Below, piece by piece: positions 12,550-41,961 of a stretch of 41,961 nucleotides of DNA. The DNA lies in IMG/VR virus record IMGVR_UViG_3300032456_000006, positions 1 to 41,961 of that record, one strand, 5' to 3'. Below the pieces are notes generated by a model. That model was not told where the DNA came from, ran no database searches, and saw only the letters and a program-made list of their open reading frames with translations. The position numbers were made by a program, and so were the translations under genes. Every line of letters starts with the position of its first letter. The stretch's first letter is position 1. Source of the DNA: a virus.

Positions 12550-12885
12550 ATGAACAAAATCGACCACTTGGCGGAACTGCTGGCGAAGGCAAAGCCTGCT
12601 GGGTGGCTGGCACCGTTCGGTGCTTATTCACCTAGCTCTGTTTTGCCGATTTACGCCTCTGGCAACCGTCAGGTCGCGGAGTCCGTTTCGCGTGAAGACG
12701 CGGCGCTAATCGTCGCTGCGATCCACGCGCTCCCCGCGCTGCTGGAGATCGCGAGGTTGGCAGATAAGATTAACCACCACGGCGGAGTCTGTATGAGGCT
12801 CCTGACTGGAAGAAACGCCGACTGTGACTGTGGTGTCCTGGAACTATGGGATGCCAGTGCCAAACTCACAAAGGAACTCTCGTGA
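12550..12885 (+). CDS. Small phage protein, unknown
   Basis: 111 aa. AAGGAAACG lies before the ATG. Contains SREDAALIVAAIHALPALLEIA, a helix common in small phage proteins, and a cysteine cluster CDCG near the end. Overlaps the RNA polymerase start by 4 bases (GTGA). Confidence 0.7.
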   Translation: MNKIDHLAELLAKAKPAGWLAPFGAYSPSSVLPIYASGNRQVAESVSREDAALIVAAIHALPALLEIARLADKINHHGGVCMRLLTGRNADCDCGVLELWDASAKLTKELS

Positions 12886-15359
12886 ACCAAGCCCTCCTTG
12901 ACCGTCAAGCAGCCCTTGAGCTTGACATGCGCTCTATCGGTACAGCCCGGTTCGAGAAGATGATTGCTGATGCCCGTGCCGGGAAGCGTGAGAGTGAGAC
13001 CCCCTACGGCTCCGTCCTCCTGGACGAGGCTGTTCTCCCCATGTCTGTGCTGGTCCGTAAGTGGCTCAAGGACCACGAGAAGCCCATGGGGTCCTCTACC
13101 CACACCTCCATCCCCTATCTCGTGGTGATCAACAACCCCGAGCTTGCTGCATTCCAGACCTGCAAGGCCGTCTTGGATTGCTTGTCGATGATGAAGGAAC
13201 CCTTAGCCCTCGCGTTGAAGATCGGTGGGTCATTGGAGGATGAGGTTCGTATGAGGGAGTTCGAGAACAAGAACAAGGCCTACTATCGCACCTTGAAGCG
13301 AAGCCTGGACAAGCGTTCAGACCACTCGGGGTACCGTAGGAAGGTCTTGGTCTTCTCGATGAATAAAGCCGGCATTCACTGGAGCGGGTGGCCTAAGGAG
13401 GATAAGGTTCACCTGGGGATGAAGCTCATCGAGCTATTCATTGAGGCCACGGGCTTCATCTCACTGGACCACACGGAAAAGAAAAAGAGGTCCAACCCTC
13501 TAGTGATTCTCCCCAGTCCGGCTGTCCTTAATTGGGTCAAAAAGAAGAACGCTAGTGGATCAGTGATGCAGCCAGAATTGCTCCCGATGCTCGTCCCTCC
13601 GCGGGACTGGACCACTCCTTGGGATGGGGGTTACCTGACCAAGGCAGTCCCACAGATGAGCATGGTGAAGGTCCGGTCCCGGATGTACTTGGAGGACCTT
13701 GCTGCCCTTGAGATCCCGAAGGTCTACAAGGCAATCAATGGGCTACAACGGACCGCTTGGCAGGTGAACGCAGAGGTCTTGATGGTCTTCCGAGAACTCT
13801 GGAACTCCGGGGTTGCGGTGGGGGACACCCCTCCCAAGTCAATGGTTGAAGAACCCCCTAAGCCCCATGACATCGACACCAACCCCGAGGCTAAGAGGGT
13901 CTGGAAGTGGGCTTTGACCAAGGCGAAGACAGAGAACATCCGAAGAACCTCAAAGATCCTTCAGACCGCGAAGATCCTTTCAATTGCGGACAAGTTCCAG
14001 GATGAGGCGGCAATATACTTTCCCCACCAGATGGACTTCAGAGGGCGCATGTATGCTGTGCCCATGTTCTTGAACCCCCAGGGGCCTGATCATGCCAAGG
14101 CCCTCCTCCGGTTTGCCGAAGGGAAACCCTTGGGTGATCAGGTCGCTGTCGATTGGTTGGCTGTCCACGGGGCTAACTGTTTCGGTGTGGACAAGGTAAG
14201 CTACGAGGACCGCATCACCTGGGTGGTAGAGAACGAGGACCAGATCATCCAGTCCGCTGAGAACCCTTTGGATCACCTGTGGTGGACCAAGGCCGACGCT
14301 CCGTGGCAGTTCCTCGCCTTCTGCTTTGAGTGGTATGGGTTCAGCCAGTGTGGCTTTGATTGGGTCAGCAAGATACCCGTAGCTCTTGATGGTAGCTGCA
14401 ATGGGCTCCAGCACTTCAGCGCCATGCTGCGGGACGAGGTGGGAGGGGCTTCAGTGAACCTGATTCCCTCAGACAAACCCAGTGACATCTATCAGACGGT
14501 GGCTGACCACGTGATTGAGCGCCTTGCCTTGGACATGAGTTCTCAGGCAATGTTCTGGAAACAGACAGGGGTGAACCGCAAGCTGACTAAGCGGTGTGTA
14601 ATGACCCGCCCGTACGGGGCCACTGCCTATGGCTACAAGATGTTCATCTATGATCACCTTGCCAACCTGCGGGGGGATTCTGCGATGGCTTATGGCGTTA
14701 GTGAAGGGGACCTTTACTACATCAGGAACCAAAAGAACCACGCTCCTATCCCCCTGAAAAAAGAAGTCAGCAACGTTACCTTTATGGCCACGGAGATTCA
14801 CGGGGCTATCGGTCGCACGGTAGTGAAGGCTGAGGAGGCTATGAAGTGGCTCCAGGATATCAGCCGGATAGCCTCTGATGGTGGCCTTCCTATGCAGTGG
14901 ACGACCCCTAGTGGGTTCCCAGTGGTCCAGGGGTACCAAAAGTACAAGAGTAAGCAGATCGAAATCTCCCTCTCAGGGAAGAGGTATGGCCTGCGGATGC
15001 AAAGTGAGATCCCAAAGATAGACCGGAAGCGTCAATCCCAGGGTATCTCTCCTAACTTCGTCCACTCCTTGGACGCTTCAGCCCTCATGGAAACATTGGG
15101 GGATAGTCTGGACCAGGGGATCACGTCCTTCGCAATGATCCATGACTCTTATGGGACACACGCAGCAGACACAGCAGCCCTTGCAGACAGCCTAAGGACT
15201 TCCTTTGTGGGACTCTATGCCACTCGGAATGTACTGGAAGATTTCCGCCTCAGTGTGGCTGAACACAATGGCATCCCTCTCTCCAAGATCCCTTTGACAC
15301 CTTCTTTTGGAAAGTTAGAAATACAGGGTGTTTTACGATCTAAGTACTTCTTCGCATAG
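12882..15359 (+). CDS. Single-subunit DNA-dependent RNA polymerase
   Basis: 825 aa; T7 gp1 is 883. GTG start in a GTGA overlap; an upstream in-frame ATG at 12846 would extend into the previous gene and has no family support. ETPYGSVLLDEAVLP marks the N-terminal domain. Motif A is LDGSCNGLQHFSAM with Asp503; motif B is TKRCVMTRPYG with Lys570 and Tyr578 (T7 K631, Y639); motif C is MIHDSYG with Asp755. The promoter-specificity loop lies between GFPVVQGY and GISPNFVHS and differs from T7 in sequence, so the promoter should differ too. The C-terminus ends KYFFA, like the conserved FAFA foot of T7. It transcribes the replication and virion genes and closes the early block. Confidence 0.97.
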   Translation: MNQALLDRQAALELDMRSIGTARFEKMIADARAGKRESETPYGSVLLDEAVLPMSVLVRKWLKDHEKPMGSSTHTSIPYLVVINNPELAAFQTCKAVLDCLSMMKEPLALALKIGGSLEDEVRMREFENKNKAYYRTLKRSLDKRSDHSGYRRKVLVFSMNKAGIHWSGWPKEDKVHLGMKLIELFIEATGFISLDHTEKKKRSNPLVILPSPAVLNWVKKKNASGSVMQPELLPMLVPPRDWTTPWDGGYLTKAVPQMSMVKVRSRMYLEDLAALEIPKVYKAINGLQRTAWQVNAEVLMVFRELWNSGVAVGDTPPKSMVEEPPKPHDIDTNPEAKRVWKWALTKAKTENIRRTSKILQTAKILSIADKFQDEAAIYFPHQMDFRGRMYAVPMFLNPQGPDHAKALLRFAEGKPLGDQVAVDWLAVHGANCFGVDKVSYEDRITWVVENEDQIIQSAENPLDHLWWTKADAPWQFLAFCFEWYGFSQCGFDWVSKIPVALDGSCNGLQHFSAMLRDEVGGASVNLIPSDKPSDIYQTVADHVIERLALDMSSQAMFWKQTGVNRKLTKRCVMTRPYGATAYGYKMFIYDHLANLRGDSAMAYGVSEGDLYYIRNQKNHAPIPLKKEVSNVTFMATEIHGAIGRTVVKAEEAMKWLQDISRIASDGGLPMQWTTPSGFPVVQGYQKYKSKQIEISLSGKRYGLRMQSEIPKIDRKRQSQGISPNFVHSLDASALMETLGDSLDQGITSFAMIHDSYGTHAADTAALADSLRTSFVGLYATRNVLEDFRLSVAEHNGIPLSKIPLTPSFGKLEIQGVLRSKYFFA

Positions 15360-29220: not shown

Positions 29221-29404
29221 CCCCTGTAGGGATCACCCTCAGGATGACCTGCTGTGGCTTCAGCCCGTTGAGTTCTCCCAAGAGACCAAAGCGTGGCTTG
29301 AAGGACTTGAGTGGCCTGAGAGTGCCTATGAGGACTTCGGGCGACTTGCGCAACACAACAAGATGATTCGACAAATAAAACAGACCCCGAAAGCCTCTCC
29401 GTAA
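29162..29404 (+). CDS. Outer-membrane spanin candidate (Rz1-like lipoprotein)
   Basis: 80 aa. AAAGGA lies 7 bases before the ATG. The signal peptide MLPVWKLCLLISILSC ends in a lipobox (ILSC, or LAC three residues later). The mature part is short, with prolines and acidic residues. Overlaps the i-spanin candidate by 59 bases in another frame. With its partner it would fuse inner and outer membranes at the end of lysis. In T7 the spanins lie near gene 18.5; here they sit upstream of the capsid gene. Confidence 0.7.
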   Translation: MLPVWKLCLLISILSCLACSPCRDHPQDDLLWLQPVEFSQETKAWLEGLEWPESAYEDFGRLAQHNKMIRQIKQTPKASP

Positions 29405-29425
29405 GGACGCTCAAACTCTCGGGGT
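29384..29425 (+). terminator. Hairpin across the spanin stop codon
   Basis: ACCCCGA (29384-29390) pairs with TCGGGGT (29419-29425), extended by AG/CT across one mismatch. A second small hairpin, TCC-GTAA-GGA (29398-29407), sits in its loop and holds the stop codon in a GNRA tetraloop. No U tract. Confidence 0.4.
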
Positions 29426-29439
29426 GGTTTGATAGGGTT

Positions 29440-29465
29440 GGCTACAGCCCATAACTGTAGCACCA
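29440..29465 (+). ncRNA. tRNA-Met-like minihairpin ending ACCA, copy 1
   Basis: GGCTACAG, loop CCCATAA, CTGTAGC, ACCA. The 7-bp stem is perfect. GGCTAC...GTAGC(C)ACCA are the ends of a bacterial elongator tRNA-Met, and CCCATAA is one base from the CAT anticodon loop CTCATAA. The D and T arms are absent, so it looks like an internally deleted tRNA. Confidence 0.4.
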
Positions 29466-29539
29466 GTGGAGTAGGGGGAGACCATCTGTCCCCCTGCCAG
29501 AATTGGCCCGTCAAGGTCGTCAATCCTCCATCAACCGTT

Positions 29540-29577
29540 GGCTACAGCGGAACCCGTAAAGGGCAAGTGTAGCACCA
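29540..29577 (+). ncRNA. tRNA-Met-like minihairpin ending ACCA, copy 2
   Basis: GGCTACA (29540-29546) pairs with TGTAGC (29568-29573), followed by ACCA. The interior has CCC-GTAAA-GGG. It shares GTTGGCTACAGC and TGTAGCACCA with copy 1, 100 bases upstream. Confidence 0.4.
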
Positions 29578-29661
29578 AAGACAGCCATCCGTATCTGAGG
29601 TACGCCCAAGTAGACCTAGCAGTCCAAAGGGAGGTCGGGGAAACCCGGTGGCATTCATCAC

Positions 29662-29735
29662 ACACGTGTAGCTCAATGTAGAGCACCCCGATACAAAGGG
29701 ACTGGTTGCGGGTTCAAGTCCTGCCATGTGCACCA
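29662..29735 (+). tRNA. tRNA-like gene with defective anticodon stem
   Basis: 74 bases. Acceptor ACACGTG with CATGTGC (6 of 7 pairs, one G-U, first pair A-C), TA at 8-9, a perfect D stem GCTC/GAGC with a short loop AATGTA, a T arm GCGGG-TTCAAGT-CCTGC, discriminator A and encoded CCA. The anticodon arm fails: CCCCG and GGGAC form only two pairs around loop ATACAAA, whose position 34-36 would be ACA. The D loop also lacks GG. Best read as a tRNA pseudogene or a tRNA mimic. Confidence 0.55.
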
Positions 29736-30129
29736 TTCACCAACTGGGTGACTAAGGATTCCAAGGTACCTCATACCGACCTGATTCCTCTCAGGGGAGG
29801 CGGGTGTCCCTCCAAGATGCCTTGGGGTACCTGAGGTTGGGCCTTGGTTCGACAATTGGGTTCGTTTCATGGGAGTCCCGGTGACTCTCTCAATAATCAT
29901 CCGTGACAGGCCGGAATAGACGGTCGTTATCTTATAAGCCATCACTTGCATCTTTATGCGGGTGGCTCTCCAGCCTTTCGGCTGACTCACAACACTCTGG
30001 TCTTCACTTGAAGAAACCCATGTGCTCTCCCTGCGGGGATTGAGCCCAAGGACAATCTCCTCGTGGTGCTGCTCTAGGAAGTTGACTGAGAGATTTGTCT
30101 CTCCTCCTTTCAAAAAGTTTATACATTCA

Positions 30130-31065
30130 ATGGCTGATTTTACTCCTAACCGTCCAGGTCAGGTCAACGGGGGCGGCGCAGCCGATGCGCTCTTCCTCAA
30201 GGTGTTCTCGGGCGAGGTCATGAAGACCTTCCAAGAAACCAACGTGATGAAACCCCTTCATCGCATCCGCAACATTCAGAACGGTAAGTCGGCGCAGTTC
30301 GTCGCTATCGGTACTGCTGCTGCCCTCTATCACACTCCCGGCGCTGAACTGGGCTCGGGTGCTATCCTTCAGAACGAACGTACCATCCAGATTGACGGTG
30401 TCCTGTTGAGTCGTGTGTTCGTCGCGAACCTCGACGAAGCGATGAGCCACTATGACATTCGTGGTCCGTACGCTGAAGCTCTGGGCCGTGCCCTGGCGAA
30501 GGCCTATGACCAGAAGACCATCCAGACTGCTGTGTTGGCCGCTCGTGCTGCCACCACCGTGACTGGTGGATTCGGTGGTTCGGCGCTGACCAATCCCGCC
30601 TTTGCCAGTGATGGTGAAGCCTTGGCTGATGGTCTGTTCGACGCTGCGCAGGCGATGGATGAAAAAGACGTGCCGACTGAAGGCCGCTTCGTCATCGTCA
30701 AGCCTGCTCAGTACTACGCGCTTGCTCGTAGCACCAAGGTTATCAACAAAGACTGGGATGGCTCGGGTAGCTTTGCCAAGGGTAAAGTCCATAGCATCGC
30801 TGGTATCGAAATCGTCCAGAGCAACAACCTCCCGACCTCGGTCATCTCGAATGATGGTCTCGAAACCAACACCTACGGCGGTACCTTCACCAACACGGTT
30901 GGCATTGTCTTCCAGCGTGAAGCGGTCGGCTCGGTCCACTTGCTGGATCTCGCTATGGAAAAAGAGTATTCGGTTCGTCACCAGGGCACCTTGATGGTCG
31001 CTAAGATGGCTGTCGGTCACGGTATCCTCCGTCCCGAGTGCGCTGTCGAATTGAAGACGGCGTAA
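30130..31065 (+). CDS. Major capsid protein (gp10A-like)
   Basis: 311 aa; T7 gp10A is 345. ADALFLKVFSGEVMKTF, GKSAQFVAIG, IQIDGVLLSRVFVANLDEAM with HYDIR, and the end MAVGHGILRPECAV are standard T7-like capsid blocks (HK97 fold). ATG 30130 is the only start that gives the family N-terminus. A GTG in frame at 30022 would add 36 non-family residues. No Shine-Dalgarno sequence lies before the ATG; the last 26 bases are pyrimidine- then A-rich, and the nearest AGGAA is 50 bases away. For the most abundant protein of the phage this is odd and points to the structured leader. Confidence 0.95.
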   Translation: MADFTPNRPGQVNGGGAADALFLKVFSGEVMKTFQETNVMKPLHRIRNIQNGKSAQFVAIGTAAALYHTPGAELGSGAILQNERTIQIDGVLLSRVFVANLDEAMSHYDIRGPYAEALGRALAKAYDQKTIQTAVLAARAATTVTGGFGGSALTNPAFASDGEALADGLFDAAQAMDEKDVPTEGRFVIVKPAQYYALARSTKVINKDWDGSGSFAKGKVHSIAGIEIVQSNNLPTSVISNDGLETNTYGGTFTNTVGIVFQREAVGSVHLLDLAMEKEYSVRHQGTLMVAKMAVGHGILRPECAVELKTA

Positions 31066-41600: not shown

Positions 41601-41961
41601 CCAAGGGCTCATCACCGGTCGTGGTCCTGCGGACCCAGGTGAGCGGAAGACGCTCATGGACACAGGCTGGAAGCCCTACTCCTATAGGATTGGGAAGGAC
41701 TACGTGTCCTTTGAGCGTCAAGACCCATACGCTATGTTCTTCGGGATCACCGCAGACTTTGTGGATGCTGCTCAACACATGGATGACCCCACTAGGGACA
41801 ACCTTGCGTCATCTATGGTGTCTGCCGTTGCCTATAACGTCACAAGCAAGACCTACCTCAAGGGTCTCGCACAGTTCATGGATGCTATTCGGAGCCCTGA
41901 AGGCTCAGTCACTGAGTCCTTCTTCAGGAATCGTGTAACTTCCTATGTCCCCGCAGGCGTC
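38623..41961 (+). CDS. Internal core protein (gp16-like), N-terminal part
   Basis: 1113 residues to the window edge; continues at base 1, total about 1327 aa. AAGG lies 8 bases before the ATG. The N-terminus has an A/P-rich linker (APAPVAAAAPEAP), and there is no visible lytic transglycosylase motif (T7 gp16 has one at its N-terminus). KPGDVP occurs twice (near 287 and 426). The C-terminal half holds DEFFKQINYRGSVQAMAY and MITPFIRTPVNIIKAVGI, known from large phage core proteins, then SALIVAGSTLAYQGL (hydrophobic). Expected to enter the cell with DNA. Confidence 0.88.
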   Translation, partial: MPDPTQPEDKEVAYIAAKLAEMEQTPDAPAPVAAAAPEAPSLSFGDRVRDTVDSVNSGIGSAFHEGAKGLSRIAGAAMRPGEWASNALMGTDYHLSSEAVEAVENFSDETAAADGSNYDPKTVVGGLSQGISQFLTGFGAVGQTLKATKLLKGTTALGEAMVVGAGADALAFDPQADRLSNLIEDFAETHPSLSNPITRFLAADENDTDAVGSLKSAMEGIVAGALVEKTLRALGATRRYLKDRKEGKVSKEVAEKNLSAAYDQLDAEVKVDVPVEVPPVAKVEPEAPKPGDVPPTTRRIGDKEYIQLDNDAVIPVGTKPSIKGAIEAASQIALWKKQGVPEELLASKTIFNWNLKGIGEDASSFWEAHGDAIRGASAERINDYAAHVKSTPALDDFRGALNSGDQSKVLDELNNLGVDLSVDDLKLAPEVPKAPKPGDVPDVQPKAPDTATLITDDHVNYKTANTKANAPLMTPEAQAAFVKNIQDNPNWVDDGLKTEGPSGFNLSKFDIPEEAKRALEEVGKFVRETVPKTRKTLDEIAEVGRDLISRGEIEEAINKGTVLAKDIDSAIHAGKLIAASLSKRQATIALKLGQVVKGSPEALALQKEFDLFDQRFVNIQASTLGLQAQGGRAVVQGRIRVAGDLSPDELAAIGASNGSLRTVVSILKEVPLWMRLMNAHNSMWINSLLSGAVTHAQNITSNTLNSVIMAAERSLGGALGGNSAMAREGVNLAIYMMSSVGDGMRMAAKAMGLPQIIKAKGHRWATIKSTGDGILDPHNSKLSDGNTGGPAISTDNFKSLQGSTTADILVNGFGQLANLPSRFLTGEDEFFKQINYRGSVQAMAYTSGTRQGLKGDELAKYIARRLDESMDDQGAVKMDRNDGVYRIKDAEYDEAVSHARKATFTSKGAEGGLLRKFEAATHAHPYLKMITPFIRTPVNIIKAVGIRTPVLNLLSGKYREALTGKKGERAAADARGQMATGSALIVAGSTLAYQGLITGRGPADPGERKTLMDTGWKPYSYRIGKDYVSFERQDPYAMFFGITADFVDAAQHMDDPTRDNLASSMVSAVAYNVTSKTYLKGLAQFMDAIRSPEGSVTESFFRNRVTSYVPAGV
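41812..41961. repeat. End overlap of the circular assembly, right copy
   Basis: Matches 1-150 at 149 of 150 positions. A41938 replaces G127, turning Ala into Thr at about residue 1106 of the joined core protein. Confidence 0.95.

Follow-up and report, generated by a model that had tools for sequence, protein, structure and literature searches.

The question raised by this locus is what a 725-nt stretch without any recognisable gene does immediately before the major capsid gene of a T7-like phage. The window, that is, the whole 41,961-bp stretch of IMGVR_UViG_3300032456_000006 that was analysed, looks like a complete T7-like genome; it carries 150-bp direct terminal repeats at 1-150 and 41812-41961 that are 99% identical, with the record ending inside the late genes. 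Portal, scaffold and capsid genes are all encoded in it, and the features that frame the question are as follows.

12846-15359: single-subunit RNA polymerase gene
29405-30129, + strand: non-coding capsid leader of 725 nt, flanked by the ORF end at 29404 and the capsid ATG at 30130
30130-31065, + strand: major capsid gene (PHROG 267, E 6.5e-86)

The first-pass annotation had described 29405-30129 as gene-free, and this was confirmed, as no recognisable gene lies between the ORF stop and the capsid ATG. Two coding readings, an in-frame extension of the capsid gene to a GTG at 30022 and a minus-strand ORF at 29673-30113, were rejected since the corresponding frames contain stops in L001, the one close relative found (capsid 65.6% identical at the amino acid level), and the conserved part has no reading frame that stays open in the window as well as in L001. 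Also as described, 26 bases separate the last hairpin, which ends at 30103, from the capsid start at 30130. The missing ribosome site is real in that the capsid ATG has no Shine-Dalgarno sequence, but it is not unusual, as 22 of the 38 starts checked lack a Shine-Dalgarno-like 4-mer. The count of at least ten hairpins turned out to carry no signal: the fold z-score against shuffles was -2.25 for the 725-base region vs. -2.27 for capsid coding sequence of similar length, and with a coding control yielding the same z, fold energy was rejected as evidence. An abiF RNA match at 29385-29425, a hairpin across the stop of the upstream ORF, scored 28 bits vs. a cut-off of 37 and was treated as chance. 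In the early region of the window, near-exact direct repeats of 35-57 nt (8723-8779/9057-9113, 7880-7914/8157-8191 and 11006-11056/11248-11298) span the starts of small early ORFs and may represent shared leaders, shared promoters or recent duplications.

The Rfam 15 scan of the 725-base region returned nothing above threshold except a tRNA. No group I or group II intron model matched, E≤10 included, and the region interrupts no gene, so the proposed intron in the capsid leader was discarded. BLASTN of the region against annotated phages produced only tRNA matches and insignificant ones, and a plasmid search gave no match. The tRNA-like features are as follows.

29440-29465, + strand: minihelix copy 1, GCTACAG..CTGTAGC with an ACCA end, seen in the sequence and absent from L001
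29540-29577, + strand: minihelix copy 2, GCTACA..TGTAGC with an ACCA end, with an L001 counterpart that differs by one compensatory change (A-U to G-C)
29662-29732, + strand: degenerate tRNA followed by CCA, an insertion between blocks A and B of the leader

A tRNA-like part, as noticed at first reading, is real: the one at 29662-29732 scores 37.7 bits against RF00005 (cut-off 29 bits) and has CCA after it. Unlike a regular tRNA, its D-loop is degenerate and lacks the usual GG, ARAGORN calls no tRNA there, and it is an insertion in the leader rather than the conserved element. Both minihelices (GGCTACA..TGTAGCACCA) resemble a tRNA acceptor stem with an ACCA end. Other tRNA-like pieces lie just upstream of the capsid element in the leaders of L001 (~1448-1509), Syn5 (L195), P-SSP7 (L196) and L110, and consist of a T-arm plus acceptor stem with the anticodon arm aberrant or missing.

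The leaders of the window and L001 were aligned without their tRNAs. The parts of the window's leader compared are as follows.

29569-29661, + strand: block A, weakly conserved, ~55% identical to L001
29733-29936, + strand: block B, weakly conserved, ~53% identical to L001
29904-29926, + strand: 23-mer identical in L001, able to form the hairpin GGCCG-GAAUAGA-CGGUC
29937-29967, + strand: hairpin H1, with a lower stem, a 5′ bulge, an upper stem UGCAU/AUGCG and a CUUU loop
29971-29984, + strand: hairpin H2, CAGCC-UUUC-GGCUG, seen in the sequence and kept in L001
30088-30103, + strand: last hairpin, GAGAGA-UUUG-UCUCUC, seen in the sequence, with a similar hairpin in L001

Strong conservation with L001 was found only from 29937 to ~30103 and in the 23-mer. 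The 3′ ~165 bases of the leader are 84% identical, and 137 columns inside this block are 90.5% identical, compared with 68.7% for the capsid DNA and 56.9% for the capsid third codon positions, while the 5′ parts, at ~53-55%, are about at the third-position level (~57%). The window's tRNA lies between blocks A and B and is absent at the corresponding place in L001, where a tRNA-Asn plus a tRNA-like piece lie between blocks B and C; because the tRNAs sit at different points, they look like insertions into the leader. By this comparison, the tRNA and the upstream ~500 bases are lineage-specific, and the selected unit is the stretch adjoining the capsid gene, not the whole 725 bases. A dead tRNA cluster, which had been offered as another reading, is therefore an apt description of the upstream, poorly conserved part and not of the rest of the region. 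Patterns drawn from sequence specific to the window and L001 found L001 only, besides coding or chance matches.

Comparison of the 240 nt upstream of the capsid gene in dozens of distant relatives revealed a recurring hairpin, laid out as a P2 stem, an unpaired C opposite RYAA, a P3 stem and a YNMG tetraloop; examples are GGC-CCUC-UGCG-GAGG-ACAACC, GAC-CUGA-UGCG-UCAG-ACAAUC and GGC-CACU-UGCG-AGUG-ACAACC. An earlier descriptor matched 79 of 104 distinct leaders, with 1.4 in 104 expected from control sequence, and after stricter removal of near-duplicates the element was found in 90 of 114 distinct leaders (about 80%), all collected through similarity of the capsid or scaffold, or included as selected isolates, without reference to the element; about a fifth have no recognisable core. 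The hairpin starts 70-143 nt before the capsid start (median 89), and phages whose capsids are down to ~30% identical have the same core. Its loops (UGCG, UGAG, CGAG, UACG, CACG, CAAG and a few YGUG) are nearly all YNMG, as in UNCG-like tetraloop hairpins, but whereas YNMG is a general loop motif that defines no family, here it is joined to P2 and the C/RYAA internal loop.

The comparison of related phages for compensatory changes, which the first-pass annotation had named as a check, detected covarying stems in this core. In a gap-free alignment of 49 sequences (A2), P3 showed up to five pair types per position, and in P2 the first pair was standard in 48 (42 G-C and 6 A-U) and the second in 39 (G-C, A-U, U-A or G-U). 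Covariation of the stems exceeded all 500 of 500 shuffles and all slid controls; since P3 had been selected to pair and P2 was not used for selection, the independent evidence in this test comes from P2. A covariance model, R1, built from the canonical short form only, gave 43 matches at E≤1 in 427 kb searched on both strands, all in sense orientation and all at the capsid leader; many of these sequences had trained the model, but none matched elsewhere.

The consensus GGCCNNNTGCGNNNGACAACC was further sought in 2.9 million viral contigs. Among the matches listed, 79 newly fetched loci comprised 26 different NNN/NNN stem combinations, and 76 had the full four-pair stem. A T7-like capsid is encoded downstream at 74 of these 76, again among the matches listed, nearly always starting 54-118 nt from the motif, and the remaining two are a contig end and a probable chance match in coding sequence. 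A stricter pattern applied to 257 Gb of bacterial and archaeal genomes gave 18 stretches, estimated to be no more than chance; one of them, on a Telmatospirillum contig, combines the full stem with a capsid gene lying 97 nt downstream, and is the sole true case from a prokaryote genome. Judged by these sequence matches, the element is phage-specific and capsid-specific in the collections scanned, and the pairing changes point to an RNA class that is almost certainly real. The suggestion of a new structured RNA class thus holds on comparative evidence and not on hairpin counts, and in place of a 725-nt RNA of the GOLLD or ROOL kind there is a conserved 3′ part of ~165 nt with a ~50-nt core tied to the capsid gene.

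The window carries its own copy of the core in an extended form, rarer than the canonical one, as follows.

30012-30058, + strand: core element, extended form, with class support from the descriptor and from covariation
30012-30014/30056-30058, + strand: candidate P2, AGA/UCU, in the window's own fold
30018-30019/30050-30051, + strand: CC/GG pairs next to the internal loop AAC/ACAA
30032-30035, + strand: UGCG tetraloop on the upper stem GCUC-UCCC/GGGA-UU-GAGC

In the window this form reads CC(30018-30019)-AUGU-GCUCUCCC-UGCG-GGGA-UU-GAGC-CCAA-GG(30050-30051)-ACAA-UCU, and in Pseudomonas phage LUZ100 it reads CC-AACU-GGCCCACC-UGCG-GGUGGAGCC-GGAA-GG-ACAA-CC. The window's candidate P2 has the three bases AAC on the 5′ side of the internal loop where the canonical form has a single C. 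A YNMG hairpin followed by RYAAYY, in sense orientation and 70-143 nt before a T7-like capsid gene, is thus present in the window as the extended form (30018-30057). The extended descriptor, which was written after the window had been seen, had a single match across the window, whereas shuffled leaders matched in 9 of 4000 cases (about 1 in 400). In 4.77 Mb searched on both strands it gave nine matches (window, L001, LUZ100, L114 with two matches from one contig that had been fetched two times, L134, Pasto, L253 and phiKMV), seven of which are extended-form capsid leaders (six distinct), while the L253 match is a canonical leader and the phiKMV match is chance. R1 was not significant on the window's copy (8.0 bits, E 6.2, eighth-ranking match in the window); it scored 15-18 bits on other extended members. 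Hairpins of the H1 type, with other lower-stem sequences, precede the core in BB8, RHEph01, L103, L085, L264 and L289, and an H1 search gave 11 matches in 260 leaders vs. 30 in all other sequence of 5.05 Mb; conservation of H1 in all leaders was rejected, as it marks a sub-group only. Taken on sequence grounds, the window is very probably a member of the class.

Among isolates, the element is present in Roseobacter phage CRP-114, Bordetella phage BB8, Rhizobium phage RHEph01 and Prochlorococcus phage P-SCSP2, with a UACG loop in Pelagibacter phage HTVC011P and cyanophage Syn5, and in the extended form in LUZ100 and Rhizobium phage Pasto. A variant with a CAAG loop occurs in P-SSP7, and a variant was recognised by eye in Lo5R7ANS. 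The element was not found in ProddE and Limnohabitans phage, nor in T7, SP6 and phiKMV, whose gaps before the capsid gene are shorter than ~95 nt; these short capsid leaders hold an annotated promoter in T7 and phiKMV and a promoter-like sequence in SP6.

The sense orientation, the narrow distance range and the exclusive link to one gene suggest a part of the capsid mRNA, and the element is quite likely to act in cis as a leader. On balance, we favour the reading in which the 3′ part of the region forms a structured 5′ leader on the capsid mRNA and belongs to a widespread RNA class that serves as a post-transcriptional booster, while the choice of a booster rather than a regulated switch is evenly balanced. 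Under this reading, the folded leader would give the capsid message a stable 5′ end within the long late transcript, either by marking that end or by being trimmed to it; it would shield that message from decay and keep the start region open, so that a large protein yield could come from the capsid gene alone. In some phages, tRNAs just upstream may be cut out by tRNA nucleases, which would help to free the capsid message; such processing is plausible in the phages that have tRNAs there.

The T7 capsid gene is served by a local promoter. The T7 gene 10 leader, with its phi10 promoter and 5′ hairpin, is like the present one in lying upstream of a homologous capsid gene, being structured and serving a high capsid output; it differs in that T7 depends on a promoter located ~60 nt ahead of gene 10 and has no core element, whereas the conserved feature here is an RNA core with a YNMG loop and an RYAA internal loop. 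No shared phage promoter motif was found in the window's leader. The Syn5 RNA polymerase reportedly relies on one promoter for more than 37 kb (PMC3950665), therefore Syn5, which has the element, must favour its capsid gene by other means. LUZ100 carries the element and, ~570 nt upstream, a promoter as well, so one does not strictly exclude the other.

A translational operator, in which capsid synthesis would be adjusted by a protein (capsid, scaffold or a host RNA-binding protein) bound to the tetraloop/RYAA hairpin, is the alternative that survives best, and it appears unlikely. The coat proteins of RNA phages act on their operator hairpin in much the same manner. Small hairpins of this design, with an RYAA internal loop that is invariant-like and a loop of fixed type, are typical of protein-binding sites, and the link to the capsid gene is exclusive. 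Yet the element stands 70-143 nt from the start codon and leaves the start itself uncovered, and its constancy across capsids of such low identity is greater than a capsid-specific contact predicts.

Somewhat less probable still is that the leader is chiefly a cutting site, for RNase P and 3′ tRNA nucleases at the tRNAs or for RNase III/E at the core, which parts the capsid message from the upstream genes. tRNAs do lie upstream of the capsid gene in LUZ100, RHEph01, L001, L110, L126 and the window, and in LUZ100 the mapped transcript 3′ end given as T14 and the tRNA-Asn 5′ end, the RNase P site, are no more than 1-2 nt apart if the -60 to +40 convention of the paper holds for the annotated region; under the same assumed convention, T15 places a transcript end ~162 nt before the capsid gene. 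However, these LUZ100 ends were published as terminators (LUZ100 paper), the 4-bp P3 of the core is short for RNase III, and tRNAs by strict criteria occur in only 6 of 110 leaders, so tRNA cutting was rejected as a general mechanism. We read the annotated terminator T14 of LUZ100 OP329100 (L185:478-577, 540-615) as a possible RNase P cut.

A separate trans-acting non-coding RNA resembling GOLLD or ROOL is very improbable. GOLLD and ROOL are likewise phage-borne and structured, of unknown function, and occur near or contain tRNAs (PMC12286853), and leaders of ~700 nt with tRNAs are present in the window and L001. The first-pass suggestion of such a relative was nevertheless not borne out, as no GOLLD or ROOL covariance model of Rfam 15 matched, either by gathering score or at E≤10; most of the leader length is barely conserved, and other phages have the core in leaders of 200 nt or less, always before the capsid gene, so the conserved part is much smaller and fixed in position. 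Being tied to the capsid gene in sense orientation at a narrow distance in dozens of phages, the element fits an mRNA leader better than a separate RNA of that kind. An element acting at the DNA level, such as a packaging, recombination or replication signal or part of a promoter, is hardly credible, for despite the fixed genome position beside the capsid gene, the stem bases change freely but in pairs, the loops belong to YNMG, a stable RNA type, and the element always runs in the same sense as the capsid gene.

Structured mRNA leaders of phages are a known kind of element, and this family of them appears to be new: no Rfam 15 family matched the element in the window or at the 17 other loci tested, and no prior description was found in the open-access literature searched. 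The capsid mRNA leader that we favour probably helps phages to make very large amounts of coat protein. With slightly less than even confidence, we propose that in most non-model T7-like phages of sea, soil and fresh water an undescribed RNA class singles out the capsid message post-transcriptionally, with RNA structure replacing the dedicated promoter of T7. In T7-like phages the capsid gene must outproduce its neighbours, and a conserved RNA leader is a testable answer to how one gene could be favoured inside a genome-length message. The element would add a family to Rfam and allow capsid starts to be marked in viral metagenomes, and it is a possible part for high-level expression.
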